From a virus, in the IMG/VR virus record IMGVR_UViG_3300023082_000250, positions 1 to 50,177 of that record: a stretch of DNA of 50,177 nt. The stretch is one strand, 5' to 3'. This document shows, piece after piece, positions 28,320-49,270 of this stretch. Position 1 is the first letter of the stretch. Each line of letters begins with the position of its first letter. The position numbers were made by a program, and so were the translations under genes. The notes beneath the pieces are model-generated. The model made no database searches. It had not been told where the DNA came from and saw only the letters and a list, made by a program, of their open reading frames with translations.

Positions 28320-28351
28320 CTTTTTAAATTTTCTCTCAATATAGTCAAGTA

Positions 28352-28413
28352 TTTACCAATCCACAACGGTAAATACTAAAAAACGGCTGCAAATCATATC
28401 CTACCTAATTTTA
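28352..28413 (+). promoter_or_regulatory. Late promoter module 1
   Basis: The palindrome TTTACC-N10-GGTAAA (28352-28373; arms extend to 10 bp, 28348-28377) is followed after 32 bp by TAATTTTA (28406-28413), one mismatch from TAnnTTTG. The other two modules have the same spacing. It drives the scaffold/capsid operon. No -33 box is seen, consistent with activator dependence. Confidence 0.75.
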
Positions 28414-28445
28414 TGGCTATTCAAACAATAGCATAATAAACTACT

Positions 28446-29096
28446 ATGTACGAAAAGATTCTTGCACAACTGATGGCTAAAAACCCAGGGGTGCCTAAAG
28501 CAATTCTGGGACTTCTTGCGACCAAATTAGCAGCAAAAGTAACAGAAGAAGATCAAATTGAAGGGGCTATCACAGACTTTGAAAGCAACTCACTTGTATC
28601 CGTTGCCGATTACGCTGCCTTACTTCAAAAGGATGGTGATAAACGCGTTGCAGACGCTTTGAAAAAAGCAAAAAAAGAAGCGGGTATCGAAACTGATGAA
28701 GATCCTGAAAAAGGAAAAGGTGGCAACCAGGCTGATATCAGCAAATTGATTGCAGATGGAATAGCAGCAGCTATGAAACCTGTATTGGAAACTATCGGAA
28801 CATCCAAGGTCAAAGAAACTAAAGAAAGCCTACGGGCAGCTCTGAAGTTGAAAGGTGTACCTGAAGACTGGGCTGATGATATCCATATCAGTGAAGACTT
28901 CGATTCTGAAGCTACAGTCACACGTCTGGAAACTAAATGGAACAATGCTCAGCAAGTAGCCATCAATAAAGCTGTTGGTGATGGAACTGTCTTCCAGAGT
29001 AATGGTCGATCGACCACTAAAATTGAAGATTCCATCAAGGAATTTGGTAAAACGGTAACACCAAAAGATGCCGGATTTAACATTGTAGAAGTTTAA
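28446..29096 (+). CDS. Scaffold-like head protein, 216 aa
   Basis: First gene of the capsid operon. Helical, charged sequence, with AKKLK-rich middle (KKAKKEAGIETDEDPEKGKG) and a low-complexity hinge, as in scaffold proteins preceding the major capsid. A scaffold would fill the procapsid interior and leave before or during packaging. No protease motif is visible. Function is inferred from position and composition. Confidence 0.65.
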   Translation: MYEKILAQLMAKNPGVPKAILGLLATKLAAKVTEEDQIEGAITDFESNSLVSVADYAALLQKDGDKRVADALKKAKKEAGIETDEDPEKGKGGNQADISKLIADGIAAAMKPVLETIGTSKVKETKESLRAALKLKGVPEDWADDIHISEDFDSEATVTRLETKWNNAQQVAINKAVGDGTVFQSNGRSTTKIEDSIKEFGKTVTPKDAGFNIVEV

Positions 29097-29101
29097 CAAC
29101 T

Positions 29102-29719
29102 ATGAGTTTATTCAATTCAAGTAGAGCAGACGTAGCTGGCAGACCAATGTTCCCGTCACCTCAACACCTTCAGGATTATCCTGGTGGAGGAACGCTGGAC
29201 AAAGATCAGTTTCCTGATGGAACAGTCTTAAGGACTTGCACGTTTCTGGCCATTGATGAAGCAACAAGCATCGTCAAGGTTTTAAAGACTGCTACCATTG
29301 TGGAAGCAGCAGCGGCCGATGCAGTCGCTTATAAAATTGCAAAGACCGTTAATGATAACGATCAGGCGAATTTGATTTTGAAATCAGATATCATGGCTAA
29401 ATCTGTAGGCGGTGCGTCATATGCTATTTCAGCAATTGACCAAACAAATGCAGGTTACGATCTGATCACATTCGGTACGACCCTTGGCGCAATGGCTGTA
29501 GGTGACGTATTGTTTCAATCGAAAACCTCTGGTGCGACTGCCGGAGCACTCTTCGTAACGCCAAATGGTGTACTGAGAAATGATGTGATTACCGGTCCAA
29601 ACACATTTGTCCCTATTATCCGCGTAGGTGCTGTTTACAACAGACGCTTACCGTTTAAAGCACCTCAGGCGGTGAAGGATGCCCTGAAAGGTTTCATATT
29701 TTTCTCTGAACAACGCTAA
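29102..29719 (+). CDS. Head decoration-like protein, 205 aa
   Basis: Beta-rich, Ala/Gly/Thr-rich sequence (VLKTATIVEAAAADAVAYKI, VGGASYAISAIDQTNAG) just before the major capsid gene. This is the place and composition of capsid-decoration or stabilising proteins. It is not certain: it could also be a minor structural component. Confidence 0.55.
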   Translation: MSLFNSSRADVAGRPMFPSPQHLQDYPGGGTLDKDQFPDGTVLRTCTFLAIDEATSIVKVLKTATIVEAAAADAVAYKIAKTVNDNDQANLILKSDIMAKSVGGASYAISAIDQTNAGYDLITFGTTLGAMAVGDVLFQSKTSGATAGALFVTPNGVLRNDVITGPNTFVPIIRVGAVYNRRLPFKAPQAVKDALKGFIFFSEQR

Positions 29720-29725
29720 TAAAAA

Positions 29726-30817
29726 ATGGTAGGATCAGTAATTTCAGAACTTGCAGAAAAGAAAAGTCTGCAGGTCTACATCGATGAGACAAAGGCAAAA
29801 TACGCAGGTATTTTCTGGCCGTCTCTATTAGCGGTAAAACCTTCAGACAACCTGAAGTGGAGTGCTGTTATCGGTGACAAAAAAGCCGGTGTGGCCGGTA
29901 ATGTAACTGCGTTCAATGTGTCTGCTCCTTTGCATACACGTGATGCCTTACGTGAAAAAGACGGTAGGATTCCTTCGATTCGTGGTGCACGTACCATGGA
30001 TGAGAATGATCTTCATAAATACCTGGAGCTATCAAAACAAAATAACCTTGACATTAATCGTGTCTTAGGTTTACTGTTCGATGATATCGAATTCTGTTCG
30101 ATCGCTCCGCACAAACGTATTGACTGGATGGTAGCGAAAATGATTTCCAATGGAGGTTACATATCATTCCAGGCAGACAACAACGTAGGTGTAACTACCC
30201 AGTACAACGTTGATTTTGGCATGCCATCTTCACATAAAACAGGAACTGTTGGTGAGGTTTGGAGCAATGCTGCAGGATCAACTCCACTGACTGACTTAAA
30301 GAAAAACTTCTTTGAGCCTTTAGCGGATTTAGGTGTGGGTGGTGGAGTGATCAGGATGCATCCAACTAAGGTATTCGATCTGTTGAACTCCACAGAGGTG
30401 TTGACCAAATTCGGTCTGCTTTCTAATGGTAAAACCAATGGAATAGATTTATCACTGACAACCGTTAATGGTTACTTACAGCAAAACAGCTGGCCGACGA
30501 TTCGCCCGTTCAATGCTTCCGTAGGTATTGAGGTGGATGGTAAAGTGACCTATTCAAACCCATTTGAGAAAGATAATATTATCTTCACTCCTGATGGTCT
30601 GATTGGTTCACTTCACGTTGCTCCAATCGTAGAAAGGGATCGCCCAGTTGCTGGTGTGACTTACGCTGAATACAATGGTAACCTGGTGAAGAAATACAGC
30701 CAGACAAACCCTGTGGTTGAGTTTACGGCATACGAGTACAATGCTTTCCCTTCATTCGACACTATCGATCAGTCTTTCATCATGAATACTGCCCGTAAAG
30801 GTTCATTCTCAGCATAG
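29726..30817 (+). CDS. Major capsid protein
   Basis: 363 aa, the expected size and position for the shell subunit. KADNNVG-type turn and FVKLW-like pattern are not strict, but the sequence order of scaffold, decoration, this gene and connectors is standard. FDDIEFCSIAPHKRIDWMVA and GGVIRMHPTKVFDLL are typical of capsid proteins of Bacteroidota siphoviruses as I remember. It should adopt the HK97 fold. Confidence 0.78.
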   Translation: MVGSVISELAEKKSLQVYIDETKAKYAGIFWPSLLAVKPSDNLKWSAVIGDKKAGVAGNVTAFNVSAPLHTRDALREKDGRIPSIRGARTMDENDLHKYLELSKQNNLDINRVLGLLFDDIEFCSIAPHKRIDWMVAKMISNGGYISFQADNNVGVTTQYNVDFGMPSSHKTGTVGEVWSNAAGSTPLTDLKKNFFEPLADLGVGGGVIRMHPTKVFDLLNSTEVLTKFGLLSNGKTNGIDLSLTTVNGYLQQNSWPTIRPFNASVGIEVDGKVTYSNPFEKDNIIFTPDGLIGSLHVAPIVERDRPVAGVTYAEYNGNLVKKYSQTNPVVEFTAYEYNAFPSFDTIDQSFIMNTARKGSFSA

Positions 30818-30824
30818 AATACTA

Positions 30825-31151
30825 ATGGATATCACTGTAAGAGAAGCCCTGAAAAGCACAGTCAATTTTCCTATACCGGTTGAACGGGTAGAAATGGCGC
30901 TTATCAATTCTGAGTTAGATGGCGAGGCTATCTATGCTAAAACAGATGAGAAAGCAGTTGACCTTGCTATGGCAGGGCTCCTCAAAACATTGATCACCAG
31001 CGGCACTGTTCGAGAAGGAGGGTTCACCAGGGAGATGCCAGCAGCTGCTGTTTTGCGTTCCTTACGGATTGATATCCTGAACAAATGGGGCATTGATGAA
31101 TCATTGCCTGTTGCGAAGCCTGAAATATACGATGGTACTGGATTATGGTGA
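30825..31151 (+). CDS. Head-tail connector protein, 108 aa
   Basis: First of four small genes between capsid and tail tube. Helical (MAGLLKTLITSGTVREGG), as expected for the adaptor that binds under the portal (gp6/gp15-like). It overlaps the next gene by 7 nt. Assignment rests on gene order, as no strong motif is seen. Confidence 0.65.
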   Translation: MDITVREALKSTVNFPIPVERVEMALINSELDGEAIYAKTDEKAVDLAMAGLLKTLITSGTVREGGFTREMPAAAVLRSLRIDILNKWGIDESLPVAKPEIYDGTGLW

Positions 31152-31477
31152 CACAATATCCAGATATCTTAAAGTTTGACATCATCAACGGTGGCGGCAC
31201 TTCTGTAGATGAAAATGGTGATACAGTGATCATCCCAGGATCCAAAGTTACGATCGGCATCAAATGCCGGTTTGAGGTAAATGCTGAAGGGAAAACCTTT
31301 CCATCGAATGATGGTGAGCAGACGCTGTACAACTGGGACGTATTCGCTCCGCTTGATCAGCAGGATGTTCCTGAAGGAATCTCCTTCACAGGGTTTGATA
31401 AGGATTTGAAATTGATTGCTACAGGCGTTGTGAAACGCTTTAAGCGTAACCAGATGAATCTTAGCATTCAAGTATAA
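31145..31477 (+). CDS. Head closure/stopper-like protein, 110 aa
   Basis: Beta-rich small protein (DTVIIPGSKVTIGIKCRFEV), placed second in the connector set, where the stopper that plugs the channel is expected. It overlaps its left neighbour by 7 nt and shares 1 nt with the next (TAATG). Function inferred from position and fold type. Confidence 0.6.
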   Translation: MVTQYPDILKFDIINGGGTSVDENGDTVIIPGSKVTIGIKCRFEVNAEGKTFPSNDGEQTLYNWDVFAPLDQQDVPEGISFTGFDKDLKLIATGVVKRFKRNQMNLSIQV

Positions 31478-31929
31478 TGGGAATCAAGGCAAGGTTTACA
31501 CCGGCTGACGTTAGAAAGATGATCAAGGAAAAAACGGATAGGATTGAATCTGCAATCATTGCCAGACTTCAGTATATAGGTGAAACATTTGTCAACAACG
31601 CCAGAACGAATGGTGCATACCTGGATCATACCGGTAACCTGAGAAGCTCGATAGGATATGTGATTTTGAAGGATGGAAAAGTCCTTTTTGAAAACTACCA
31701 GGCGGCATCTAAAGGAACTGACAAGGAAAAGGGTGTAGCTACCGGTAAGAAGCTGGCAAAGCAAGTGAGATCAGGATTGAGCAAAGGGTATGTTTTGATT
31801 GTCGTGGCCGGTATGGATTACGCAGCTGCAGTAGAGAGCATGGGAAAGGATGTGTTAACGGCCAGTTCGATTATCGCAAAAAAGGATTTACAAAGGGCAG
31901 TCAAAAGCTTTAAGAACTCACTTAGATAA
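31477..31929 (+). CDS. Neck/tail-completion protein (HK97 gp10-like)
   Basis: 150 aa. RIESAIIARLQYIGETFVNN and the later YLDHTGNLRSSIGYVI and VVAGMDYAAAVE are features of the HK97 gp10-like family (helix, then the TGxLRxSI strand and a Y-A-x-x-VE element). It joins the neck to the tail. Basic C-terminal helix. Confidence 0.82.
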   Translation: MGIKARFTPADVRKMIKEKTDRIESAIIARLQYIGETFVNNARTNGAYLDHTGNLRSSIGYVILKDGKVLFENYQAASKGTDKEKGVATGKKLAKQVRSGLSKGYVLIVVAGMDYAAAVESMGKDVLTASSIIAKKDLQRAVKSFKNSLR

Positions 31930-31931
31930 CT

Positions 31932-32372
31932 ATGGGATTTACATCAATTGAGGTTGTTAATATGCTTAAAGATCACATTGTGCATAGCGCGCTGATGACT
32001 GATCCAAATAAACCCAATGGTAAGCTGTGCAAGTACAAAAGGCCTAAGAATTCAGTACTGGAAGATGTCGTGATTAACGGATTGCCTCTGATACAAGATG
32101 ATATCGATGAGGCGGTATTGAATGTCAATATCTATGTGCCTAATCTGAACTTTCCAAATGATCCGGATGACAAAACGCAGCCAGATAACGCGAGGCTTCT
32201 GGTGCTGTCAAAACTTGGAAACAAGGCATTTACAGAGGGTGCTGATAGTGAGGGTTGCATCTGGGATGAGAACGGAGATTACTGCTTTAAATACCAACAG
32301 GACAGTGTGATTGAGGACGATAACAATCAACACTACATAAATTTTAGAATCGAGTTCTACTCATCAATTTAA
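31932..32372 (+). CDS. Tail terminator-like protein, 146 aa
   Basis: Directly before the tail tube gene. Beta-type pattern with VNINIYVPNLNFP-like strand and final RIEFYSSI strand, as in gpU/tail-terminator proteins that cap the tube and set its end. Based on position and strand pattern. Confidence 0.65.
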   Translation: MGFTSIEVVNMLKDHIVHSALMTDPNKPNGKLCKYKRPKNSVLEDVVINGLPLIQDDIDEAVLNVNIYVPNLNFPNDPDDKTQPDNARLLVLSKLGNKAFTEGADSEGCIWDENGDYCFKYQQDSVIEDDNNQHYINFRIEFYSSI

Positions 32373-32378
32373 ATAATT

Positions 32379-32882
32379 ATGGCAAAGAAATTTTATGCCT
32401 TAAAGGCAATTACAATGGGGCCACCTGCATCTGATGGAGGAATGGGACAAACCCTGACAGAGGTTCTTGGTGCCACCGTAAAAGGAACGGCAACATTAAC
32501 ATCCACCACTCCAGAAACAGCTGAGATCGAGATCGAAGAATCAGACGAGCTGTATGATGAGATTGAAACAAAAGCTGCAGTATGGACTTTAGCGGCCAGT
32601 ACATATAACGTATCTGCTTTATCCATGAAACAGTTTTTCGGCGGATCAATCACTACAGGTGTATGGTCACCTCCTGTAGATGGCGCAACTGTTCAGGTGT
32701 ATCAATCGGTTTTAGTTGAAACAAGGACCGGTATTAAAGTGAGCATCGTGAAAATGAAACTTACTGGTACCGCAAACCTGGCTTTTGATAAAACCAAGTT
32801 AGGTCAGATTGATTGGACAGGTAAGATCTTGAAAGCAGATAAAGCTGCCACACCATCTTTTACTATCGATTTCGGTGTATAA
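32379..32882 (+). CDS. Major tail (tube) protein
   Basis: 167 aa. Alternating strands and Thr/Ala-rich (TLTSTTPETAEIEIEESDEL, FDKTKLGQIDWTGKILKADK), common for tail tube subunits, and positioned before the chaperone and tape measure. It forms the stacked hexameric rings of the tail. A hairpin terminator follows directly. Confidence 0.78.
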   Translation: MAKKFYALKAITMGPPASDGGMGQTLTEVLGATVKGTATLTSTTPETAEIEIEESDELYDEIETKAAVWTLAASTYNVSALSMKQFFGGSITTGVWSPPVDGATVQVYQSVLVETRTGIKVSIVKMKLTGTANLAFDKTKLGQIDWTGKILKADKAATPSFTIDFGV

Positions 32883-32887
32883 CCTCA

Positions 32888-32911
32888 TAAGCCCCTCTAA
32901 CCGGGGGCTTA
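32888..32911 (+). terminator. Hairpin after the tail tube gene
   Basis: TAAGCCCC (32888-32895) pairs with GGGGCTTA (32904-32911), 8 bp. The loop is 8 nt. No U-run follows, so leaky termination or mRNA stabilisation is more likely. It would keep tube protein in excess over downstream tail proteins. Confidence 0.6.
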
Positions 32912-32921
32912 ATATTCTCAT

Positions 32922-33434
32922 ATGACAGAGTTTGAAAAGTTACAAGCACTTTCCCTGGTAGGTGAGGTAATCACTGAGAAAAGTAAAAGTGTGACGATCA
33001 AAGTGAAGCCTGATAACCTAATTGAAAAGCTATTGATGAAAATTGGATTGATGAAAACCGAGCGGGTGTTTGAGATCAGCCCAATTTTAGTTGGCAACAG
33101 GTACAGAGTTTCTTCGGTCGCTAACAAGATACCAGAAGACCTTTTTGATAAAGGCAGGATCAGTGAGACTAAAGCGTGGAAAGCTGTTCAGGAATACACA
33201 GACTATTTTATTTACATAGTGGCTGTATGTATCCAGAACAACAAGAAGGAGCCATCAAAGGCACTTTTGAAATACCTGCGATGGGTGGAGGACCGGGAGT
33301 TCTTCGATCTTCTGGATAAATCTCTCACCCTTGCCGGTGTAGAGCTTTTTATGAAATCTATCATCTTGATCAAAGGCCAAAGTGTCTTGAATGTGCCGGA
33401 GAAGGTTGCGACAAGTGCAACGGATCCGGATTAA
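32922..33434 (+). CDS. Tail assembly chaperone (gpG-like)
   Basis: 170 aa, placed between tail tube and tape measure. Helical second half (KAWKAVQEYTDYFIYIVAVC, LLDKSLTLAGVELFMKS), as usual for the gpG type chaperone that coats the tape measure. A second open frame in -1 phase overlaps its end and runs to just before the tape measure, as in gpG/gpGT pairs. Confidence 0.75.
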   Translation: MTEFEKLQALSLVGEVITEKSKSVTIKVKPDNLIEKLLMKIGLMKTERVFEISPILVGNRYRVSSVANKIPEDLFDKGRISETKAWKAVQEYTDYFIYIVAVCIQNNKKEPSKALLKYLRWVEDREFFDLLDKSLTLAGVELFMKSIILIKGQSVLNVPEKVATSATDPD

Positions 33435-33685
33435 CACCTGATGAGTCCACTGATGCCGAGGGAGATCATAGCCCTTGGAGATTACTAAACGATTACCGGA
33501 AGTATTGGCCGGGAACGAACAGAAAAGAGTTGCTGTGGGAAACCAGCTGGTTCAATTTTACAATGGATCTGGCAACAATCCCAAAACCTAAAACTACCAA
33601 ACCAGGTGAACCCAATGAACAGGATGGTATCATGATATCACCCGAAGATGAGGAAGCAGAATTAAGAAAAGATTTAGGACTATAA
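33320..33685 (+). CDS. -1 frame extension of tail chaperone (gpGT-like) with Cys motif
   Basis: This frame is open from 33320 (after TAA at 33317) to TAA at 33683, is -1 relative to the chaperone, and has no good start codon in its first part. It should be reached by a -1 frameshift in 33320-33434. It encodes CLECAGEGCDKCNGSG, two adjacent CxxCxGxG units as in DnaJ zinc fingers, then a Pro/Glu-rich tail. The slip site could not be pinned. No classical XXXYYYZ heptamer was found in the proper phase. Confidence 0.6.
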   Translation: MSHPCRCRAFYEIYHLDQRPKCLECAGEGCDKCNGSGLTPDESTDAEGDHSPWRLLNDYRKYWPGTNRKELLWETSWFNFTMDLATIPKPKTTKPGEPNEQDGIMISPEDEEAELRKDLGL

Positions 33686-33686
33686 G

Positions 33687-36600
33687 ATGGCATTATCAAC
33701 AACAGGCGGTGGATTATACTTCGATTCGACTATAGACGATAGCCAGTTCGGTGCGGCTATCAACCGCATGAACAATGAAATCAATGGCCTGTCAAATAAT
33801 GTCAAAAAACAGGGTTCTGATTTAGAAAACTTTGCCAATCGTGCAGCCAAAGCTGCTACTGCTTTTTTCTCCTTACAAGCTGCTGAAGGATTCATCGAAA
33901 AAATGATCCAGGTTCGCGGAGAGTTTCAACAACTCGAAGTAGCCCTTACTACCATGTTAGGCAGCAAAGAAGCTTCCAACAAGCTGATGGGCCAAATGGT
34001 TCAGCTGGCTGCTACCACTCCATTTACACTTACTGAAGTTGCAAAATCTGGTAAGCAATTGCTTGCCTATGGATTCGCAGCTGATACAATAACTGATACG
34101 CTCACCAAACTGGGAAGCGTTGCCGCTGGTGTATCTGCACCGATTGGTGATATTGCTTATCTATTTGGTACCCTCAAAACTCAGGGCAGGGCATTTACCA
34201 AAGATATCCGCGAGTTCTCTGGCCGTGGTATTCCTATTATAGCCGAACTGGCCAAAGTACTTAAAACCTCTGAAGCTAATGTAAGCACTTTGGTTGAGGC
34301 TGGAAAAGTCGGATTCCCGGAAGTAGAGAAAGCATTCAATAACCTGACCAGTTCAGGTGGCATGTTCTATAACCTGATGAAAGAGCAGTCAAAAACATTG
34401 ACTGGCCAATTGAGCAACCTTTCAGATGCCTGGGACAATATGTTGAACAGCTTAGGTAAGTCTCAGGAAGGAATATTCTCCAGCGGAATAGCAGCAGTTA
34501 CCGAACTGGTTCAGAATTACGATAAGGTTCTTTCCATCATCACTGTACTAACCGCTGGATATGGCGTATATAGAGCCGCACTCCTGGCTACTGCTGCCGT
34601 TGATAAAATTGGCTTAACCAATGCCGGCAACATGGTCGTTGCGTTGAATGCTGAAAGCGTGGCAAGGATTGCCAAGGCTGGTGCTGAAGCTGAAGAAATG
34701 CGCGTTGAGGTGAGTAATCTGGCTGTGAAGAAAGCCGCAGCTATCCATTCCTATCAGAATGCTCAGGCAACTTTGGCCGAATCAGAGGCAAAACTTGCGA
34801 ATCTATCCACCGGTGCACTGACTGCTGCACAGGAAAGAGAAAGCCTCGCCCGTAAGGCGGCTATCGCTGCATCATCCGCTTTCTACACCGCTAAATTAGA
34901 ACTTGAAACTGCTGCTAAAGGCGGGGCGACTGCCGCCGAGCTATCTTCAATGAGAGCGGAAGTGGTTAGTTTGAATGTTAAACGGGAAACAGCTTTACAA
35001 ACCGCAATCAATGCAGAAGCAAACCTAAAGAACGTAGAATCTAAAACATTGGCTTCTGCTCAGGAGAAAGTTATAGCTGCTCAGGAACAGGCTGCTATCG
35101 CAAGAAAGGCAGCCATCGCTGCCGGCGCCGAATTCAACACTGCAAAAACCGAATTGGAAACAACTGCTAAGATTGCCAATAGTGCTGCTACAGTCGAACT
35201 TACTGCTGTAGAGAGCCTGCAAGCAGCAAATAAGCGAATACTGATTGCATTACAGCAAGCATACAATGCTGTATTAGCTGCTACACCAGCTGCAGCATTT
35301 GCTGTGGTTCTAACTGCACTCGGAGTTGCGATCTATGCTTTAACCCAAACGACCTCTGCTGCAGTGGTGGCTACCAGGGCATTGAATGATATTCAGGCAG
35401 AGATTGCAGGTAAAATCGCTGAACAAAGGCTGGCTGTAACGGATTACGTTAAAATAATTAAAGATGCCAATTCCACTGAGAACGAAAGAACAACTGCCTT
35501 AAAGAAATTAACTGATCTCAGCCCAAAGATATTGGGGGCTCTCAACGCTCAGAATATATCCACAAGGCAAGGATCCGACGCAATAAAAGAATACTTGAAA
35601 TGGTTAGATGCCAAACTTCAGGGAGAGGCCGCGTATGTAATCAAGTCTGATGCAGTACGTCGAATCGCTGAACGAAATATCAAAGCGTCCGCGGAGGGCG
35701 AGGAAAAAACCAAAGGACTGGATTGGACAAAGAGGTTGGGGTACAGTCTCAGGAACTTCATTACTGGCAATAGTAAATTATCCAGTGCAGATGAATCCCA
35801 GCAGATTGTTGATGAATTGAACAAGCATGATCAGGCTATTATCAATGCTGTAGACAAGAAATATGGCGCTGCATTAAAACAGCGTGCGTTGGATGGAGTA
35901 ACCCGCACTGATGCGACTATACCAGATGTAAAAAATAAGGCTTACTATGATGCGATAATTAAAAAGAATACCGAAGATCTGGAAGCGCTGGACAGCGGAG
36001 CGAAAGACTTTGAGGCAAGATCTAAACCTTTGATCGCGAAAATAAATGCTGCTCGTAAGGCATTACTGGCATTTGATTCAACCGGCAAGCAGGCAAAAAC
36101 AGATGCTAAAGCTGATAATCTTGAAAACTCAGCCTTAAAACGCCAGGCAGAAATGCTGCAGAAGATCTATGAATTGAATGAAAAGTACAATAATAAATCC
36201 TTAACTGATGACGAGCAGAAGCTTGCCGATATCAGGGCAGAATTTAAATCCCTGCAGACGGATATTGATCAGTACAATAAGGATCCTAAGAATAAAAAGG
36301 TTAATCCAAATCTGAAACCGGCACTTGAAAAAGCTCTGGATAATCAGGAATATGAAAATGAGACTAAACGTCTGGCTGCACAGCTCGATAAACAGAAAAC
36401 TTTATATGCTGATTTCGAGGCATACAAAGTGCTGTTTGGTGAAGATAAGGCCAAACAACGTTTTGGGGAGGAATTAACCAGTACCGATCAGTTTATCGCT
36501 GATCTGGAAGCAAGACGTGCTAAGTTACTTGAAACAGATCCTCTCAATATGAGCGGTATTCAGAAGGACAGACTGAAGTTGTATGATGACTCGATCAATG

Positions 36601-39573: not shown

Positions 39574-39574
39574 C

Positions 39575-39700
39575 ATGGATGTGGTAATAGACATAGGCAT
39601 CGACATAGCCGCATTACTGGCACCCTTAAGAGGAAGATTGACCGACAGCGAAGGAAATCAACTAATGGACAACAATAACAACATTATACAGACAAGATGA
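39575..39700 (+). CDS. 41-aa tail-region protein with Dit-like end motif
   Basis: An ATG at 39575, one base after the previous stop, opens 41 codons ending by ATGA overlap with the fibre gene. The product (MDVVIDIGIDIAALLAPLRG, then RLTDSEGNQLMDNNNNIIQT) matches the end of Dit in the pattern (L)xDSxGNxxMDxNxN.I..R. It may compete for, or extend, the same assembly contact. Real-gene support: position, coupling and this similarity. Confidence 0.6.
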   Translation: MDVVIDIGIDIAALLAPLRGRLTDSEGNQLMDNNNNIIQTR

Positions 39701-42183
39701 GTATATTCCCTGATAATTACACAAAGTTAACTCCGACCGGCACAGAAAAGCTGATGGCGGCTAGACTGAGTGACGGCAAGATGTTTTACATTCAGCTATC
39801 TGATCTCGCTCAGTTATTTGTCACACCGGCAGGACTTACAACGGCTTTAGGCGGGTATCAGGCTAAATTGGTCAGCGGTACAAATTTGAAAACCATAAAT
39901 GGGGAATCTATTTTAGGGAGCGGGAATTTCAATTTACCGGTTCAGGATCTGTCACCTTACGCCTTAAAGGTTGATTCTCTTGCTAAATCACTGGTATTTT
40001 CATCTTTTATAGATAAATCGAAACAGCTGAGTACTTCTGTGCTTACTGGTTTCGGGTACGATTCTGCCGGAACCTTGATAACTTCGGCTAATGCTACTGC
40101 TACGGAAAAAGTCCCTGTGATCATCCCAGCAGGAGGTAGATATTTTACCGTATTGGGATTATTATCACCAACAGCAGCGGGCACAAGTTTAAGACTTATG
40201 AATGCTGCAGGTGTCCAGATCGGCACGATTGCAGGCGCAACAGGAACGTTCGTTCAGGATGTAGAATCAACCAGCAACGGTTACAAGGTTCAGGTTACTG
40301 ATACCACCGTTAAATTCATTGCTCTACAAACGAATACGGTTAATGTTAATTCTGCAAACTTTGCAATCTGGGACGGCCCGTTTGTGCGAAATGATTCACG
40401 AACCATTGACCCGAATTTACTGCCGACATTCGCAAAGAAAAGCGATATCCTGGTTTATCAAGAAAATCTGGCAAAGATGCTGCCTACCGGCTATAGATAC
40501 TCCGGAACAGGTGGTTCTTTATTGGGAGGACAAAACTTTACAGGCACTGAAAAAGTTCCGTGTGCTGCCGGTGACGTGTTCTTTATTGGTATTAATACAT
40601 TGGGTACAAATGCCAACGTAGGAGCTTATTTTACTGCAACAGGTGCGGGAGCTGGAGCGATATTGAAAACTGCCTTAGTTTTAGTGAGTGGCGGATGGAC
40701 ATTGACCATCCCAGCTGACGCAACTATAGCGTATTTCTATCTTTTCTTCATTACCACTGAGGTGAACTTTTCCACGCTGCTGATTGTAAAGGGTTCAACC
40801 TATGTGGCGCCAAAACTTAAGCCGGAGATTATACCAGATGGCAAGTCAAAACTATCTGATTTCACGAATGATGCTGGTTTTGTGGGAAATGCTGATATTC
40901 TTCAAAATTATGATACGCTTGTAACGAATGTCTATCTCGCTTCTATATGGGCCGCCGGCGCGGCAACTGCGTTACCAAGTGCTAATGCTTCGTATGTAGC
41001 TATAAATAAAATAACATCTACTCCAGGTTCGTCGGTAGCAATTCAGGGTATAACATCTGGATTTACCGCTCAAACGCAGGTCGGTCGTGCATGGGATGCA
41101 TCCGGGACCCTAATAGGTGGCATTTTACCTGCAGAATTTGTACCTATTGTTGGCGGGTATAAATATGTTTTCCCTGCCGGCGTATACATGGTTGGATTTA
41201 ACTTTTTAGCGACGATAATTGCTGATACTACTAAGGTAATTATTCAGACAGGCGCTGTTGTCAGAGCCAAGGGGATAAAGTCATCGTTGCTCCCTTCATT
41301 CTCTTTTTATGAGACAGATGCAGCTGCATTGGCTTGGTATAATACAGGAATACTACCGAAGGTATATACTACCAGAGGTAAAATAGTTAAGGTAAAATCT
41401 CAGTCTCAAGGAAACGGAAGATATACATTCCCTGGTATCCCCCTGCCTGCTGATTTTGTAGCAAATGGGAATACTATTCCCGGCGTACTTATCAATAATA
41501 ATGTTGATAATACTATTTATAACGACATCCATGTTTATGGAACTGGTAATAAAGAATATTCAACGTCTGGCACGCAATGGAGCCCACTGATCCTACTATT
41601 TCAAAGAATGATAGCGAATTACAGGGCCCAGGCGGGCAACTCTGCAAAGAACCTGTATGCGGTCCAAACCTCGTTGGGAGGTACCTCTTTCGATCCTGTA
41701 AATGGAGACCTTGGTGGCCCCTGGAATGTTGATACCGATGCTATAAACAGGAATAATCCTTTAGCCCAGAAATTGAATGTTACAGACGAGCGTAGGACAC
41801 GCGCCATGATGGACACTTATCCAGACGCAGACGTTTGTGTCATAATTTACATTTTCGGTGAAGGGGACCGTAATCCGTTGGCAGCAGCTAAGTTCTATCA
41901 AAACGTCAAAAATAGCATCATGTATGATCGCGGTGTTGCCAAAAATCCAATGTTACCGGTAATTTTAGTAGGCGTGAATGCTGCTTCAACACAGTACAGC
42001 CCAATCGTTGAGCAGGCAAAAATTGATCTTGCAGCTAATGTTCCAAATGTTAAATATATCCCCGTTACCGGCTCTACTACCTTGGACGGAATTCACTGGG
42101 ACCTCGCTACCGGCACTACAGTAATGAATGATATCTATAACGAGATCTTAAATAATCCCATTACATATAAACTATTAGCATAA
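39697..42183 (+). CDS. Tail fibre with C-terminal SGNH-like esterase domain
   Basis: 828 aa. The N-terminus (residues 1-80) resembles a fibre attachment part. The middle is repetitive beta-structure with two similar modules (GGQNFTGTEKVPCAAGDVFF; earlier TATEKVPVIIPAGGRYFTV). The C-terminal ~270 residues hold SGNH blocks: SQSQGNG (about 569, nucleophile-Ser region), SLGGTSFD (about 658), FGEGDRN (about 719) and DGIHWD (about 797, Asp/His). Such domains de-acetylate surface polysaccharide. It would trim host capsule or exopolysaccharide during adsorption. Confidence 0.78.
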   Translation: MSIFPDNYTKLTPTGTEKLMAARLSDGKMFYIQLSDLAQLFVTPAGLTTALGGYQAKLVSGTNLKTINGESILGSGNFNLPVQDLSPYALKVDSLAKSLVFSSFIDKSKQLSTSVLTGFGYDSAGTLITSANATATEKVPVIIPAGGRYFTVLGLLSPTAAGTSLRLMNAAGVQIGTIAGATGTFVQDVESTSNGYKVQVTDTTVKFIALQTNTVNVNSANFAIWDGPFVRNDSRTIDPNLLPTFAKKSDILVYQENLAKMLPTGYRYSGTGGSLLGGQNFTGTEKVPCAAGDVFFIGINTLGTNANVGAYFTATGAGAGAILKTALVLVSGGWTLTIPADATIAYFYLFFITTEVNFSTLLIVKGSTYVAPKLKPEIIPDGKSKLSDFTNDAGFVGNADILQNYDTLVTNVYLASIWAAGAATALPSANASYVAINKITSTPGSSVAIQGITSGFTAQTQVGRAWDASGTLIGGILPAEFVPIVGGYKYVFPAGVYMVGFNFLATIIADTTKVIIQTGAVVRAKGIKSSLLPSFSFYETDAAALAWYNTGILPKVYTTRGKIVKVKSQSQGNGRYTFPGIPLPADFVANGNTIPGVLINNNVDNTIYNDIHVYGTGNKEYSTSGTQWSPLILLFQRMIANYRAQAGNSAKNLYAVQTSLGGTSFDPVNGDLGGPWNVDTDAINRNNPLAQKLNVTDERRTRAMMDTYPDADVCVIIYIFGEGDRNPLAAAKFYQNVKNSIMYDRGVAKNPMLPVILVGVNAASTQYSPIVEQAKIDLAANVPNVKYIPVTGSTTLDGIHWDLATGTTVMNDIYNEILNNPITYKLLA

Positions 42184-42189
42184 TATACC

Positions 42190-43461
42190 ATGGCAACAAA
42201 TTCATTTAAATACGGAGACAAGACAGTGACCTTTACCAAGAAAACGGTCACCACCACAACTGCAACACTGTCCGACGGGACTGTAATCCCATTTGTAGGA
42301 TCCGCATCATCAGCGGTGACCAGTGCAAAGGTTTCTGAGGCATATGTGAAACTGAAGGGCGCGTATGTGCCGCCAGTTACAGTGCCAACGCCGCCTGTGC
42401 AAATTCCTACACCGCCGGTGATCATCATTCCTCCATCACCGGGAACGGCAAAGGAGATCAGTCTCTCCGACTTCGCCCAGTTGCGTGATGTGGCCGATAT
42501 GAAGTTTGCGTTAAAACCAGGATCATGGAGCGGAGGGGTTTACATTTCGAACCTCAAGAACGTCACTATTGAGGGTGCCGGTAAGGCGCAGCTAACAGAA
42601 GACGGGATTGAGTTATCGGGTAAATTATCAGGATTGGTCCTGTCCGGATTGAACCTTAAGAATATAGAAGGAAGGCAGATTGTCGCTGTTGGCGTGGATA
42701 AGGTTAAGTATACCGGTAAGGCCGGGACATTCATTGATGGGCTGACATTGCAGAATCTGATCTCAGATAATTGCGGACGTCTATTCCATGCTGACGGTAA
42801 TCTGAATAATGGCGTGTATGACGGGGTCATCAAAGATTTCAGGCTATTGAATTCAGCGTTGACCAATTCACCGGAACCTGGTGATTACGTTTACCTGGGA
42901 AATGCAATTGACGCTCTTGTACAGGGTAATAGGTTCGACAGGATCAATACCAGATTCAGTAATCCAGATAAGCCCAACGGAGAGCATAACGGGATTATCT
43001 TCATGAAAGGTAACGGTATTATATCTGATAATATTTGTACCAACCATCAAGGTAATTTCGGCCGTATTTGGCTGCACAGTATCGATGGATTGAAAACTGT
43101 GCAGATCCTTAGAAACTTTGTATATAACTCGCTGAAATACTCGGCATTCGAATTACAGCGCAGCGTTGAATCTGTAGCCAGAGGTTACAAGCCAGCCAAT
43201 GCAATTGTTAACGGTAATATTGCTGGGCACCTGTCCGCTTTAAAAGATTGGGACGGTCAATTGCTGGATCTATACAATACTGGGGGAACCCTTGAGTATA
43301 TGGGAAATAAAGGATTCGACCTATACGGCACCAAGTTCCCGATTTCCAATATGATCAATAACATGAGCGATGTGAAGATCACTGAAAAGGATAACCAGTA
43401 CTTCGCCACACTGGCAGCTGCACTTGCAGGCATACCAACACTAAAGGCTTTGATGGCCTAA
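42190..43461 (+). CDS. Beta-helix tailspike-like protein
   Basis: 423 aa. Residues 1-60 form a beta-type attachment part, a Pro-rich linker (VPPVTVPTPPVQIPTPPV) follows, then a right-handed parallel beta-helix: VTIEGAGKAQL, GLVLSGLNLKNIEGRQIVAV, NGIIFMKGNGIISDNICTNH, VQILRNFVYNSLKYSAF. This is the pectate-lyase-like fold of tailspikes and depolymerases. No catalytic set could be named. It probably binds or cuts a surface glycan. A terminator follows. Confidence 0.78.
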   Translation: MATNSFKYGDKTVTFTKKTVTTTTATLSDGTVIPFVGSASSAVTSAKVSEAYVKLKGAYVPPVTVPTPPVQIPTPPVIIIPPSPGTAKEISLSDFAQLRDVADMKFALKPGSWSGGVYISNLKNVTIEGAGKAQLTEDGIELSGKLSGLVLSGLNLKNIEGRQIVAVGVDKVKYTGKAGTFIDGLTLQNLISDNCGRLFHADGNLNNGVYDGVIKDFRLLNSALTNSPEPGDYVYLGNAIDALVQGNRFDRINTRFSNPDKPNGEHNGIIFMKGNGIISDNICTNHQGNFGRIWLHSIDGLKTVQILRNFVYNSLKYSAFELQRSVESVARGYKPANAIVNGNIAGHLSALKDWDGQLLDLYNTGGTLEYMGNKGFDLYGTKFPISNMINNMSDVKITEKDNQYFATLAAALAGIPTLKALMA

Positions 43462-43468
43462 AATCTTA

Positions 43469-43492
43469 AAGCCCCGACATCTGCCGGGGCTT
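43469..43492 (+). terminator. Intrinsic terminator after tailspike
   Basis: AAGCCCCG (43469-43476) pairs with CGGGGCTT (43485-43492), 8 bp, loop 8 nt, followed by a T-rich CTTTCCCTTTT. It separates the tailspike gene from late promoter module 2. Confidence 0.8.
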
Positions 43493-43500
43493 CTTTCCCT

Positions 43501-43562
43501 TTTACCATTGGCTAATGGTAAATTCAAACCTCCGTCCGCGCCCCGCACCTCCGGTAAATTTG
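43501..43562 (+). promoter_or_regulatory. Late promoter module 2
   Basis: TTTACC-N10-GGTAAA (43501-43522; the inner arms extend to TTTACCAT/ATGGTAAA), then 32 bp, then TAAATTTG (43555-43562), a full TAnnTTTG match. CGGTAAATTTGTG around the element is identical to module 3. The hub start at 43568 follows closely. Confidence 0.8.
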
Positions 43563-43567
43563 TGGTA

Positions 43568-46500
43568 ATGGTAGGCAAACTGGATATTTATAGAGCAGGA
43601 GCGTTATTTGCGACAGTAGATATCGATGAGAGTACAGTATTTACAGAGAAACTTCCAGGTACAGACTTCATCGCTTGCCCTATCAAAACACTGCGCGCTG
43701 TTGACTTTCAGGAAGGTGATTACATCACTCACAAGGGAACAAACTACAAGATCAACATCATCCCTGAGTTTGGCAAGGCTAGTTCCACTAAAGCCAAAAG
43801 TTACAAGATCAATTTCGAGGCTCCTTTCTATGACCTGATCGATATATTCATTGAGAACAGTCAGGGCGCACATACCTTTCCGTACTACGCAAATGCCCGC
43901 GACCATGCTCAGATGGTAATTGATAATGCTAATCTGGAAGGGTCAGGTTATACATTAGGTGCCATCGAGGATACTGAGGCTGTACTTATCAACTATGACT
44001 GGAGTTATGCTCGGGCATCGCTGGATGATATTGCCAAAGCCACCGGTTTAGAATGGAAATTTAACGGCAAGGAACTGACCATGGTCAAAGCCATCGGCAG
44101 AGATACTTCGCTTGTTTTCCAGTATGGCCGGGGCAAAGGTCTGCATGAGATTACCCGGGCACCAGATAATAATAAAGCGATCGTCAATAAAGTATATGGT
44201 GTTGGAGGTACCAAAAATATCACAGCGGCATATCGTAACGGTACTGAATCTAACCTGGTATTCGAAGAACGTTTTGTTACTACACCGGGAGTGCTGGCGC
44301 GTACTGAGCGACCCAAACATGGTAAATATGAAAACTTAGAAATATATCCTCGCTTCGAGGGAACCGTTACTGCTACCACACTGATCAGGGATGAGGCCAA
44401 TGTTATAACTGGTGCTACAATCACCGATACCTCCATTAATTTCGATCTTAACCTGCATCTACAGGAAGGTGTAAAGGCTAAAGTATCCTTCAGGACCGGC
44501 CCACTTGCTGGTGTGGAAGGTGGTTTTGAAATTGAGAATATCAATTACGCAACCAAGACCGTTACCATCATCGTCAATACCGATGCGAATAATTATACAT
44601 TACCAAATGAGCTCAATTTTCCAGAGGTAGGTCATAAGTTCACGTTTTTAGATGTGATAATGCCGCCCGAGTATGTCGTGGCCGCCGAACTGGAATTGAA
44701 AACAGCATCAGAATTGTATCGTGACCAGAACAAAGCACAGCGTTTGAATTACAGCGTTGTATTGGACGAAAAGCAATTGCGAGATAATCTCATACAACTA
44801 CATGCCGGTGACAGGGCAAACATGATCGATGTGGATCTGAATGTTGATGAGATACTCAGGTTTACTGAGATCAGCTACCCTCTGGTAAACGAATACAAGG
44901 TCACCGGCACGATAGGTAATGAGATAACTTACAGCCGTGAGGTGAAGCTTTATGCTGATGTACTGAACAATACGCAACAGATGGCATCTATTGATCGCAG
45001 AGGTCAGGAGATTGCCAAGCGTGGTGCACAGAACCTACGTGTGCTTGCTGAAAGTATATTTGACGTTGAGGGAAACTTTGACTCAGCCAAATTCAATGTC
45101 GGGGTACTTTCTGCATTGCTGGGCATCTTCGGAATCAAGTCTGCAAACTTCCTGCTCAACAGGGTCTTTATCACCGCTAACTTTGGCAGTGATCCCAATG
45201 CAGTTAATATATCTACAGGGGAACTGTTCCATTTGGAATATTCTAATCCAGGTGATCAGAACATCTGGCAGATGCAGGCGGTTACGCAATCAGGATTAGT
45301 GCCGGGGCAGGAATACTATGTTTATTCCAAACTGAGTAAATCCTCACAGGTAGGTACATTTCTGATCACCACTGATCAGATCAGACCGGATGATATTCCG
45401 GGGTTCTACACGGTGCGTACCGGTATCATCTATCCACAGATCAATGGATGGAGGGATGTTGACTTTACTTATGGTATCACCACTGTAAACGGGCGCCAGA
45501 TCAAAACCGGTATCATTCAGGGTAACACCGGGGCATTGATCATCAATCTGGATACAGGTGAGATATTCGGTAAGGTAACTTTCCGGTCTTCCAATGGATC
45601 GGTTAAAGATGTGGCCGATCTTCAGGATCAGGTAGACAAATTGCCGATCCAGGGAAGGAACTACTATGGGCGTACAAGTCCTTTCAATTCTATGGGCCCA
45701 GGATCAACCGTGGCCTCACAAACGAGCAACGGATTCATTCTCCGCGGTGTTGTAAATAATGATGGGTTTGCCAGGGTGAGTAATGTGATTACCTCAAACG
45801 GCGACTGGACGATTAGCTTTGACGTTTTTGTTGATGGAGTAGCATGGAGCGGCACATTTATAGATGTATGTGATGGAGCTGCAGTATATCTTCCTGGCAT
45901 TCCTTTAAACGGCACTGTAGGATCGCCAAAGCATTTCGAGTTTACAGTAAATGTTCAAAATTACACTCAGGAACTCTATAATTTTATTGATTTCAATGCG
46001 CTGTCAAGCCAAAATTATTATTTCTCAAATTTTAAGGTTGAAAAGGGAACCAAGGCGACACCATGGACGCCTGCTCCCGAAGATACTCAGGCAGATCTGG
46101 ACTTGGCAATTGCACAAGCCAGCGAAGCATTAGCCGAAATTGATAATATATCCAATGATGGCATTCTGGATGTTTCGGAGAAAACTTCGCTGTACCAGCG
46201 TTACCTGACTATTTTAGCGGAGAAAGATATTTTAGTTGCTTCGGCTGCGCCTTTTGGAGTATCTACCGGGGATTATGTGGGCAACTGGAATGTGGTACGA
46301 TCTCAATTAGAAACAAATTGGCTCCAAAACCTCGCAATAGCCACGCCCGTTGACCGGATATATTTCGATACCGTATTTACCAATTACTATAACAGCAAAG
46401 TAAATCTACAAAAGTCAATCACCGATGCAGCGAATGGCAAAATCAACAATATACAAACCGGAGGCAGGAACTATATCAAAAACTCAAATTTTGCCAGAGG

Positions 46501-48040
46501 TCTTGAAGGTTGGTATACTAACGGAGGAACAGCAACCCCTACTGTTAAGGATGGAAAAACATGCTTATACATTGAATCATTGGCTGCGTATAACGGTATC
46601 TTCGGAGGTAACGCCGGGCAAAGTTTAATAGCCGGAGAAACCTATACAATCAGTTTTGATATCCAAGCCGCTTTTTATCAAACTTCCGAAACTTTTATTG
46701 TTGGTTATAATCAAGCGGGTTCTAAAGCCATTGCTGTACCGAATGAACCGCAATGGCGAAGGGTGAGTTTTCAAATTGTATCAGGATTCACGGGGCAGGA
46801 TAGTTTGATATTTTACGGATTTGCGAATACTCAGACATTCTACCTAACTAATTTGCAGGTTGAGAGAGGTACACTGGTCACTGACTGGAAGCCTGCTCCG
46901 GAGGATGTTTCGCAATATGCTGACCAAGTTGCTTACAATGCCCTGGTACAAGCCAATGCCACAGCCGAAAGCATCGCAACGAGCAAAGCTAATGCCGCTC
47001 AAGCTGCTGCACAATACAACGCTGCAAATGATGCTCAAGCAAAAGCGGACGCTGCTTACAATGCTTCTGTTGCCGCTTCGAATGCTTATTCAAATAATAT
47101 TGGTAGTGTTGCAGCTGCCGATGCGAGCAATAAAGCTACTGCAGCTTACAACAACGCTCAAGCCGCTGCCAATGCTCAGTACAACGCTCTGACAGGCACA
47201 TTGAAAACGTTGGCATTCAGAGATATTCAGACAGCAGGGAGTAATGGCGTCATAGTTGTTGATGGGGGAAATTTTATCGCTTTTTCAGTTGATGCTGCGT
47301 ATATCCGGGCCAACGTCATCAATGCTGGGTACATAAATACATTGTCATTAGACGCAGTTACAGGAACTATAGGTGGATGGGTTATAAACTCTGAAGGATT
47401 ATACAGTCCTCAGCCACCGTCTACACCGATTGATCAATATCAAAGCATAAAACTGAGAGCGGCAGGGAATGCAATTGTTATGGAGAGAGGTGTTTCCGGT
47501 AAAATATGGGACGTTGGATCCCAATCTTGGATAAACAGCGGAGGATATGTTATTCAATCCAGTTATATGAGCCCTAACGGCCTCGTCGTGAGGAGTAGTG
47601 GACAGAATGCAGGAGTGAACGGGGTGATATCTGCAGTTCACATTGAAGGGTCTGGGAGTGCAACTCATGGGTTGTATGTTGGTATAAGCGATACCCCGGG
47701 TAATTATGCTGCATGGCTAAACGGTAACGTGAAAATGTCAGGATCGCAAACATTAAAAGCAACAAGTGTCGGCTTGCCGTATTATGTAAATGAATTCGAC
47801 TATCAGATATTTGTGAGTGCTGGAAGTGGAGCTGTCAATCTCCCCTCGGTATCCGAGGGGCGTACTATAGAAGTTATAAACCTACTATCCGGCGCTATAA
47901 GCATATCATATGGATCATCCAATATAATTTCAAGTTTAGTAACTGCTAATGCTGTACCGGTATCTTCGTTTTCCCTACCAGGTTTTGCTTCAGTAAAAAT
48001 GATGGCTACCGGGAGCTATTGGTTCGCGGTAGGCAGATAA
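43568..48040 (+). CDS. Tail hub/endopeptidase-like protein with fibre modules
   Basis: The ATG at 43568 (MVGKLDIYRAGALFATVDID) is preferred to TTG at 43508, whose 20 codons run over the late promoter. 1490 aa. The N-terminal ~400 residues (YDWSYARASLDDIAKATGLE, NKAIVNKVYGVGGTKNI) resemble the hub part of Tal/prophage-endopeptidase-type tail proteins. Two carbohydrate-binding-like modules follow at about 700-845 and 965-1120, ending WTPAPED and WKPAPED. An Ala-rich coiled-coil shaft (about 1120-1210) and C-terminal receptor-binding part come last. Protease activity was not demonstrated by motif. Confidence 0.78.
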   Translation: MVGKLDIYRAGALFATVDIDESTVFTEKLPGTDFIACPIKTLRAVDFQEGDYITHKGTNYKINIIPEFGKASSTKAKSYKINFEAPFYDLIDIFIENSQGAHTFPYYANARDHAQMVIDNANLEGSGYTLGAIEDTEAVLINYDWSYARASLDDIAKATGLEWKFNGKELTMVKAIGRDTSLVFQYGRGKGLHEITRAPDNNKAIVNKVYGVGGTKNITAAYRNGTESNLVFEERFVTTPGVLARTERPKHGKYENLEIYPRFEGTVTATTLIRDEANVITGATITDTSINFDLNLHLQEGVKAKVSFRTGPLAGVEGGFEIENINYATKTVTIIVNTDANNYTLPNELNFPEVGHKFTFLDVIMPPEYVVAAELELKTASELYRDQNKAQRLNYSVVLDEKQLRDNLIQLHAGDRANMIDVDLNVDEILRFTEISYPLVNEYKVTGTIGNEITYSREVKLYADVLNNTQQMASIDRRGQEIAKRGAQNLRVLAESIFDVEGNFDSAKFNVGVLSALLGIFGIKSANFLLNRVFITANFGSDPNAVNISTGELFHLEYSNPGDQNIWQMQAVTQSGLVPGQEYYVYSKLSKSSQVGTFLITTDQIRPDDIPGFYTVRTGIIYPQINGWRDVDFTYGITTVNGRQIKTGIIQGNTGALIINLDTGEIFGKVTFRSSNGSVKDVADLQDQVDKLPIQGRNYYGRTSPFNSMGPGSTVASQTSNGFILRGVVNNDGFARVSNVITSNGDWTISFDVFVDGVAWSGTFIDVCDGAAVYLPGIPLNGTVGSPKHFEFTVNVQNYTQELYNFIDFNALSSQNYYFSNFKVEKGTKATPWTPAPEDTQADLDLAIAQASEALAEIDNISNDGILDVSEKTSLYQRYLTILAEKDILVASAAPFGVSTGDYVGNWNVVRSQLETNWLQNLAIATPVDRIYFDTVFTNYYNSKVNLQKSITDAANGKINNIQTGGRNYIKNSNFARGLEGWYTNGGTATPTVKDGKTCLYIESLAAYNGIFGGNAGQSLIAGETYTISFDIQAAFYQTSETFIVGYNQAGSKAIAVPNEPQWRRVSFQIVSGFTGQDSLIFYGFANTQTFYLTNLQVERGTLVTDWKPAPEDVSQYADQVAYNALVQANATAESIATSKANAAQAAAQYNAANDAQAKADAAYNASVAASNAYSNNIGSVAAADASNKATAAYNNAQAAANAQYNALTGTLKTLAFRDIQTAGSNGVIVVDGGNFIAFSVDAAYIRANVINAGYINTLSLDAVTGTIGGWVINSEGLYSPQPPSTPIDQYQSIKLRAAGNAIVMERGVSGKIWDVGSQSWINSGGYVIQSSYMSPNGLVVRSSGQNAGVNGVISAVHIEGSGSATHGLYVGISDTPGNYAAWLNGNVKMSGSQTLKATSVGLPYYVNEFDYQIFVSAGSGAVNLPSVSEGRTIEVINLLSGAISISYGSSNIISSLVTANAVPVSSFSLPGFASVKMMATGSYWFAVGR

Positions 48041-48053
48041 TAAATATATATAT

Positions 48054-48386
48054 ATGAGAACAGAAAAAATAAACCTAAGAGAGGTAAATGTATTCGATTT
48101 AATGGATGAGCCGGTTTTATTACCTACAACATTTGTCATGGATTTAGGGAACGGTATTTACGTCAAATACAGGGATATCGAAAGGCAAGATTTAGGCCGT
48201 AAAATATTCATGAGTGAAAAAGAACAAAAGGAACTGGTTATGGATGAGAGGGAGTTAAGTATGTTCATCTCATTGTTTGAAGAGACGGTTTTCCTTCCGG
48301 GGTTGTTGCAAAATGCAATAATGGAATACTTAAACAAAAAATTGAAAAACTTAAAAAAAGAAGAAGATGGCAACAGCAACAAGTAA
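48054..48386 (+). CDS. Hypothetical protein, 110 aa
   Basis: Just after the fibre gene. Soluble with a beta-type first half (VLLPTTFVMDLGNGIYVKYR) and a Lys-rich helical end. Might be a fibre chaperone by position, which is inference. It overlaps the next gene by 20 nt. Confidence 0.6.
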   Translation: MRTEKINLREVNVFDLMDEPVLLPTTFVMDLGNGIYVKYRDIERQDLGRKIFMSEKEQKELVMDERELSMFISLFEETVFLPGLLQNAIMEYLNKKLKNLKKEEDGNSNK

Positions 48387-48642
48387 AAGGATATTGGTAT
48401 CCGAATCACAGAAAACAATAGCTACCTTAGAAGTGGGTGACTGGAAATTAAACATAACTTATGAGGGGGAAGCGGGGAAGCAGGTGTCTCAAGTTACCGT
48501 AAATGGAAATAAGGGGAACGCCTTTGTCAACTTCAACAGGAGTGCTCAACAAATAAATGTAAATTTTAACGGTTCTGATTATGATACCGATTTAATTGCC
48601 GCAATTCTTATTGAGGTTTCGGATATCACAAAGCCAGTATAA
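48367..48642 (+). CDS. Hypothetical protein, 91 aa
   Basis: Beta-rich small protein (TLEVGDWKLNITYEGEAGKQ, then VTVNGNKGNAFVNFNRSAQQ). Not recognised. Ends just before a bidirectional hairpin. Could be an accessory fibre or virion surface protein. Confidence 0.6.
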   Translation: MATATSKRILVSESQKTIATLEVGDWKLNITYEGEAGKQVSQVTVNGNKGNAFVNFNRSAQQINVNFNGSDYDTDLIAAILIEVSDITKPV

Positions 48643-48645
48643 GAT

Positions 48646-48673
48646 GGTGCCGGTAACCATTCCGGCACCTTTT
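48646..48673. terminator. Bidirectional intrinsic terminator
   Basis: GGTGCCGG (48646-48653) pairs with CCGGCACC (48662-48669), 8 bp, loop 8 nt. TTTT follows on the + strand. It separates the rightward fibre unit from the leftward lipoprotein gene, whose stop is at 48672. Confidence 0.8.
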
Positions 48674-49112
48674 AGTATTCTTTTTCCAAATTGGTATTAT
48701 TTCCTCTTAGCGTAATTCTGTTGGTTTCGTAATCTTCCGGGAGTATAGTATGAGTTAAAGTATATGTATAAGCCCCTGTACGAATGAAAGTAAAGGCTAT
48801 TTTTCCATTTGAGAATAAAACAGCCTTGTCATATTCCAGGCGATAGGCAGTTCTGATCGTTTCTTTAGATCCCGGTAAAGATCCGTCTGCTTTATGATAA
48901 ATTTGATCAAAATAGAAATCATAGAAGCTACCTGTAATAGTAACTGTTCTTATGTTGCCGCTTTTGACAGCAGTAATGCTGGCCGCAGGTACTGGGGCGC
49001 TTGGATTTTCTTTCTTGATTTCTGTATCTGTTTGTGGATCTATGTCATCATTGGACTTAGAACATCCTACGGCCAATGATGCCAGGATTATGAGAGCGTA
49101 TATCTTTTTCAT
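48672..49112 (-). CDS. Lipoprotein (moron-like)
   Basis: 146 aa, leftward. MKKIYALIILASLAVGCSKS has a basic N-terminus, hydrophobic core and lipobox (LAVGC, Cys17). After Cys comes a Ser/Asn/Asp-rich stretch (CSKSNDDIDPQTDTE), like Bacteroidota lipoprotein export signals that direct proteins to the cell surface. The rest is beta-rich. It stands alone with an opposite orientation between late units, so it is probably a moron expressed in the lysogen or early, perhaps blocking superinfection. A TACCTTTA element lies on this strand at 49128-49135. Confidence 0.75.
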   Translation of the reverse strand: MKKIYALIILASLAVGCSKSNDDIDPQTDTEIKKENPSAPVPAASITAVKSGNIRTVTITGSFYDFYFDQIYHKADGSLPGSKETIRTAYRLEYDKAVLFSNGKIAFTFIRTGAYTYTLTHTILPEDYETNRITLRGNNTNLEKEY

Positions 49113-49127
49113 AGGTAGTGATTGACA

Positions 49128-49135
49128 TAAAGGTA
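49128..49135 (-). promoter_or_regulatory. Possible promoter of lipoprotein gene
   Basis: On the reverse strand TACCTTTA is one mismatch from TAnnTTTG and lies 15 bp upstream of the lipoprotein ATG. No ATGCAT or TTTACC-type palindrome is paired with it in this direction. Confidence 0.4.
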
Positions 49136-49208
49136 AATAATTTATACAGTAAAACTAATTCCTTTAAAACAATAAAAAAATAGTAACAAGTTACTACGGG
49201 TTCCCGTA

Positions 49209-49270
49209 TTTACCATTGCCCATTGGTAAAGTGTAAAACAAGATGTCCGCACATACGGGCGGTAAATTTG
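49209..49270 (+). promoter_or_regulatory. Late promoter module 3
   Basis: TTTACC-N10-GGTAAA (49209-49230), then 32 bp, then TAAATTTG (49263-49270). CCCGTAT (49203) and ATACGGG (49253) also form an inverted repeat around it, and TACGGG/CCCGTA (49195-49208) just upstream is a compact hairpin. It drives the lysis genes, with the endolysin start 25 nt after the -7 element. Confidence 0.8.

Follow-up and report, generated by a model that had tools for sequence, protein, structure and literature searches.

Palindromes at fixed spacing before the late promoters of a Pedobacter-type phage, and a candidate late activator encoded next to its terminase genes

The virus record IMGVR_UViG_3300023082_000250 of IMG/VR, analysed over its whole length of 50,177 nt (the window), contains three palindromes of the form TTTACC-N10-GGTAAA that are probably (at about 0.72) the operators of a single dimeric, phage-encoded activator of late transcription, most likely the 152-aa product of a gene at 21324-21782 (plus strand) that lies directly before terS and terL. 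Five features that can be read from the DNA itself lead to this interpretation: the palindromes, their fixed distance from a promoter box, the absence of a -33 box, the agreement of the operators within each phage, and the conservation and position of the candidate gene.

The exact palindrome is found at 28352-28373 (operator 1, capsid promoter), 43501-43522 (operator 2, tail promoter) and 49209-49230 (operator 3, lysis promoter), none of them assigned to a strand, and nowhere else in the window, compared with 0.0045 copies expected under a single-base model. With up to two mismatches there are 7 matches versus 2.24 expected, and therefore only the exact form is informative. The original prediction that a -7 box follows each palindrome after exactly 32 bp is confirmed (TAATTTTA at 28406-28413, TAAATTTG at 43555-43562 and TAAATTTG at 49263-49270, all on the plus strand), as is the identity of CGGTAAATTTGTG at 43552 and 49260. 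Because the first T of the -7 box corresponds to position -12 in Flavobacterium johnsoniae (PMC6847099), the palindromes are predicted to span -66 to -45 with their centre at -55.5, exactly where binding of an activator had been proposed, and by the same convention transcription is predicted to start near 28418, 43567 and 49275. A TTAAAA tract lies between operator and box, with its TAAAA at 28377-28381 (capsid promoter) and 49234-49238 (lysis promoter), both on the plus strand. As already noted, TTG is absent at the -33 spacing from all three window late promoters.

Conservation of palindrome and spacing in relatives, the check proposed for the late-switch reading, was examined in phages and prophages of Pedobacter and other Sphingobacteriales that have their gene order in common with the window; the prophages sit in Pedobacter chromosomes, and the host of the window phage is Pedobacter-like bacteria. 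Five relatives (G001-G005) were found by terminase and capsid queries, and the others (G006-G012) by a query with the candidate regulator; G008 duplicates the promoters of G005, and G012, a fragment of 4 kb, has no late promoters, leaving ten distinct phages or prophages besides the window. When palindromy was scored at every offset, anchored on the -7 box alone, the 23 late promoters of the 11 phages gave a single peak, 43 bp upstream of the box, with 6.96 of 11 pairs matched (background mean 2.98; maximum 4.30 in 1000 dinucleotide shuffles). The peak persists in G001-G005, which were found without the regulator (7.0), in the capsid promoters (7.0) and in the lysis promoters (6.8), and the late-switch reading is supported accordingly by symmetry centre and spacing. 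The aligned consensus consists of TTACCA-N8-TGGTAA, the TTAAAA tract (-29 to -24, numbered from the T that opens the -7 box) and GGTAA(A/T)TTT.

The late promoters resemble the Bacteroidota housekeeping promoter in one element and depart from it in the other. Their -7 boxes agree with TAHHTTTG, taking the form TAAATTTG at the tail promoter and at nearly all lysis promoters and ending in A at the capsid promoters, whereas the -33 element (TTTG or TTG) is missing from 22 of the 23. The -33 motif is reported to be necessary for full activity (PMC2483708), though it is weak in the F. johnsoniae set, and thus the late promoters plausibly need help.

Spacing and symmetry are conserved, but the operator letters are phage-specific: the half-site is, for example, TTTACC in the window, GTTACC in G001, TTTACG in G002 and G006, TTCACC in G005 and CTTACC in G009. 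Capsid and lysis operators, which lie about 13-19 kb apart in the relatives and about 21 kb apart in the window, have half-sites that agree at 0.79 within a phage and at 0.59 between phages (permutation p=5e-5), and G002, G004, G006 and G007 combine near-identical downstream leaders with three different operators (that of G002 being that of G006). Operators that agree within a phage and differ between phages are what a trans-acting factor carried by each phage would produce, and the sequence comparison thereby indicates a phage-encoded dimer. A DNA pattern scan of viral contigs for the window palindrome with TAAATTTG returned no match, because the relatives use other letters, and a search for palindromes at 64 loci that encode a related virion protein yielded only scattered matches outside the families described here.

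Among the window proteins, only the candidate at 21324-21782 was found in every one of the 11 relative records, some of which were retrieved with it and five (G001-G005) without it. Homologues are present even in G009 and G010, which have few other genes in common with the window, and the order candidate-then-terS is kept wherever a relative has a terS homologue. Its product matches no Pfam or PHROG family at E<=0.001, and a sequence search of the Protein Data Bank (PDB) gave nothing usable. Sequence identity among the homologues is 0.28 over residues 93-109, 0.36 over 110-126 and 0.36 in the loop at 54-66, compared with 0.47-0.67 in the other segments; the helices of residues 95-126 are thus among its most variable parts, as expected if DNA specificity drifts. 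The gene directly after it (21784-21975) encodes a 63-aa protein of unknown function that is conserved in 9 of the 11 relatives.

Four more distant phages encode remote homologues of the candidate (E 1e-16 to 1e-22) and have capsid promoters with TAATTTTA or TAATTTTG, each with its own palindrome centred 54-54.5 bp from the box, one helical turn further out than 43 bp. The arrangement occurs at the capsid promoter only and two of the four phages are near-identical, so that their support for the candidate is suggestive. No such arrangement was seen on inspection of seven phages that have related virion genes and no detectable homologue of the candidate.

The candidate gene has a promoter of a different operator class: its -7 box, TATCTTTG at 21310-21317 (plus strand), stands behind an inverted repeat, TTATGCAT-N12-ATGCATAA. 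This repeat or a similar one overlaps the -33 region ahead of -7 boxes at 15429, 21310 and 26783, upstream of early or middle genes, the candidate activator and a head-morphogenesis gene, and relatives have versions of their own, such as ATGTTCTAA..TTAGAACAT in G001. A small XRE-type regulator encoded at 20008-20241 (minus strand), with a similar minus-strand gene at the same place in G001, is a possible prophage repressor.

At the capsid promoter the operator may face two ways. A 131-aa accessory open reading frame (ORF; 27924-28319, minus strand) diverges from the capsid operon, and its predicted promoter combines a -7-like box (TATATTGA, 28336-28343, minus strand) with a -33 TTG (28364-28366, minus strand) that falls inside operator 1. 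A divergent ORF lies just past the operator in 7 of 10 capsid promoters; all seven have a TAnnTT-type box on the other strand 7-8 bp beyond the operator, and five have TTG 19-20 bp further on, within the operator. One other promoter, in G004, has the full divergent box arrangement. A post hoc test of the association gave Fisher p=0.003 and 0.0005, with the window lysis promoter, which also faces a more distant minus-strand ORF, entered as being without. The divergent genes encode short, mostly weakly related proteins, and G002 has an unrelated 291-aa ORF in place of 27924-28319; the position looks like a cargo site. The overlap of sites suggests that the capsid operator may act as a two-way toggle.

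The identity of the activator, its binding to DNA, the activation and the repression of the divergent gene are proposed to fit together as follows. The 152-aa protein would be made from a middle promoter just before terS and terL, and a dimer of it would bind each palindrome, centred near -55.5, upstream of a weak promoter of the Bacteroidota type with a -7 box and no -33 box. Once bound, it would recruit or activate the RNA polymerase of the host at the operons for capsid, tail and lysis. At the capsid promoter the same binding would also cover the divergent -33 box, switching the accessory gene off as the capsid operon is switched on.

The predicted structure of the candidate (AlphaFold2) is all helical, and its closest PDB neighbours in a Foldseek search are DnaA domain IV-DNA complexes (3pvp, probability 0.99, target template modelling score 0.76, E-value about 0.7). 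The top viral structural neighbours include proteins labelled DnaA C-terminal, some from phages of Nonlabens and other marine or freshwater Bacteroidota, and in Nonlabens phage P12024L, whose DnaA-like protein is such a neighbour, no homologue of the candidate was found above threshold. The resemblance to DnaA domain IV is a suggestive lead drawn from a predicted model. Several results count against it or against the proposal as a whole. The Foldseek E-value is high and the mean predicted local distance difference test score of the model is 75.7; comparing profiles with DnaA domain IV gave no significant result when the closer homologues were used, and with a deeper alignment residues 42-78 aligned to the first helices of the domain at P=0.0018 and a probability of 15. 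Similarity of operators tracks similarity of regulators weakly (Mantel rho 0.19, p=0.14, and 0.28, p=0.03). Symmetry is weak in G010, in the lysis promoter of G004 and in a few others; the promoters were selected visually with the -7 box as guide, and the selection was loosest in G010, the weakest case of all; and G006-G012, having been retrieved with the regulator, share it by construction.

The palindromes may be late operators and yet be read by another phage protein (such as the small 21784, 13107 or 17715 product) or by a host factor, an explanation that is considered unlikely. The link from 21324-21782 to the sites is comparative only, the 21784 product accompanies the candidate in 9 of the 11 relatives and the 13107 product is found in 9 of the 11; however, the 21784 product was not found in G009 or G010, the 13107 product in G010 or the short G012 fragment, or the 17715 product in G009, G010 or G012. 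A host factor would not account for operators that agree within a phage and yet differ among phages whose hosts are related. More doubtful still is that the palindromes are repressor operators that silence the late promoters in a prophage. The residence of relatives in Pedobacter chromosomes and the overlap of the capsid operator with the divergent -33 box would suit a repressor, but a site at -66 to -45 is away from the -7 box, promoters without a -33 box should be weak unaided, and the second-class inverted repeat over the -33 region is a better fit to a repressor site. That the inverted repeats form RNA hairpins or terminators of the preceding operon is very improbable: they do sit in intergenic gaps, and a GC-rich terminator-like repeat occurs just upstream of operator 2, but no T-run follows them, pairing across phages is good at positions 5-10 and poor in the inner 8 bases, and the distance to the -7 box does not vary by even one base. 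Chance palindromes beside promoter-like words, to which the abundance of two-mismatch matches might have pointed, are refuted by the comparison, given three exact sites versus 0.0045 expected and 0 of 1000 shuffles near the comparative signal.

The genes behind the late promoters are in keeping with most of what had been claimed for them. The capsid operon begins with a gene of unknown function (28446-29096, plus strand, PHROG 5824) and continues with genes at 29102 and 29726, the latter being the start of the major head protein (PHROG 29), and operator 3 precedes a lysis gene that encodes a GH108 endolysin (49296-49880, plus strand); the gene at 43568-48040 (plus strand), called the hub gene in the original prediction, encodes a large tail or host-recognition-like protein of 1490 aa, and the hub label was not established. 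The predicted starts of the tail gene (43555-43570) and the candidate activator (21310-21326) coincide with or lie at most 2 nt from the start codon, directly at the ATG at 43568 in the former, and several relatives have the same spacing; both mRNAs look leaderless. A second small palindrome, AGTAACAAGTTACT at 49182-49196, is close to the lysis promoter, and is also found near the G001 lysis promoter. The terS and terL genes (22517-24583, plus strand, terS at 22517) are directly 3' of the candidate activator cassette. Elsewhere in the window, 5324-7972 encodes an 882-aa protein with a DNA methylase domain, and Rfam and tRNA scans of the window gave no matches.

A limited literature search found no late switch described for phages of this group. 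The analysis provides an operator that can be tested, a candidate for the activator and a rule for the spacing, together with a collection of natural phages whose matched operators differ in specificity; it opens the study of how an activator works with the RNA polymerase of Bacteroidota, which is unusual, and could yield orthogonal regulators for Bacteroidota hosts.

Among known systems, Ogr of P2, delta of P4 and B of 186 offer the closest parallel, in that a single small activator of the phage uses a dyad site to serve several late operons. The sites of P2 lie near -55 at several late promoters, and those described here are predicted at -55.5 (in 23 promoters, centred 43 bp ahead of the -7 box). 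Ogr and delta contain a CX2CX22CX4C zinc finger, whereas the candidate has a single Cys and no Pfam match, and the host sigma factor is here of the Bacteroidota type. P2 Ogr serves four late promoters through TGT-N12-ACA (PMC3931495), in contrast to a consensus of TTACCA-N8-TGGTAA with letters that vary by phage. The position of the candidate just upstream of terS recalls the RinA/Ltr regulators of Gram-positive phages, rinA being located upstream of terS (PMC13123087). Those regulators, to which the candidate has no sequence likeness (no match in Pfam or PHROG at E<=0.001), drive one long transcript from a single promoter beside their own gene, and the repeats bound by Ltr of phi13 are located at the 3' end of the ltr coding sequence, unlike the three distant promoters and sites of the window. 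The C protein of phage Mu likewise activates several late promoters from specific sites that lie upstream of the -35 region or overlap it (PMC4461284); by its description, the type of host promoter and the spacing are different. DnaA domain IV (Bac_DnaA_C, PF08299) and the phage DnaA C-terminal proteins are the top structural neighbours of the candidate model, with a weak profile alignment over the first helix-loop-helix, but the candidate lacks a PF08299 match above the cut-off, the GRDHTTV signature and an ATPase domain, and its proposed role is in transcription. The proposed late switch works like that of P2 Ogr and its gene is placed like rinA or ltr, and by the features tested it belongs to neither family. 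As a tentative proposal, possible rather than probable, a DNA-binding module of the DnaA domain IV type, akin to the one in the replication initiator, may have become a family of late activators in Bacteroidota phages, with an operator specificity that diverges fast and a toggle that works both ways, turning the capsid operon on and a prophage-expressed accessory gene off.
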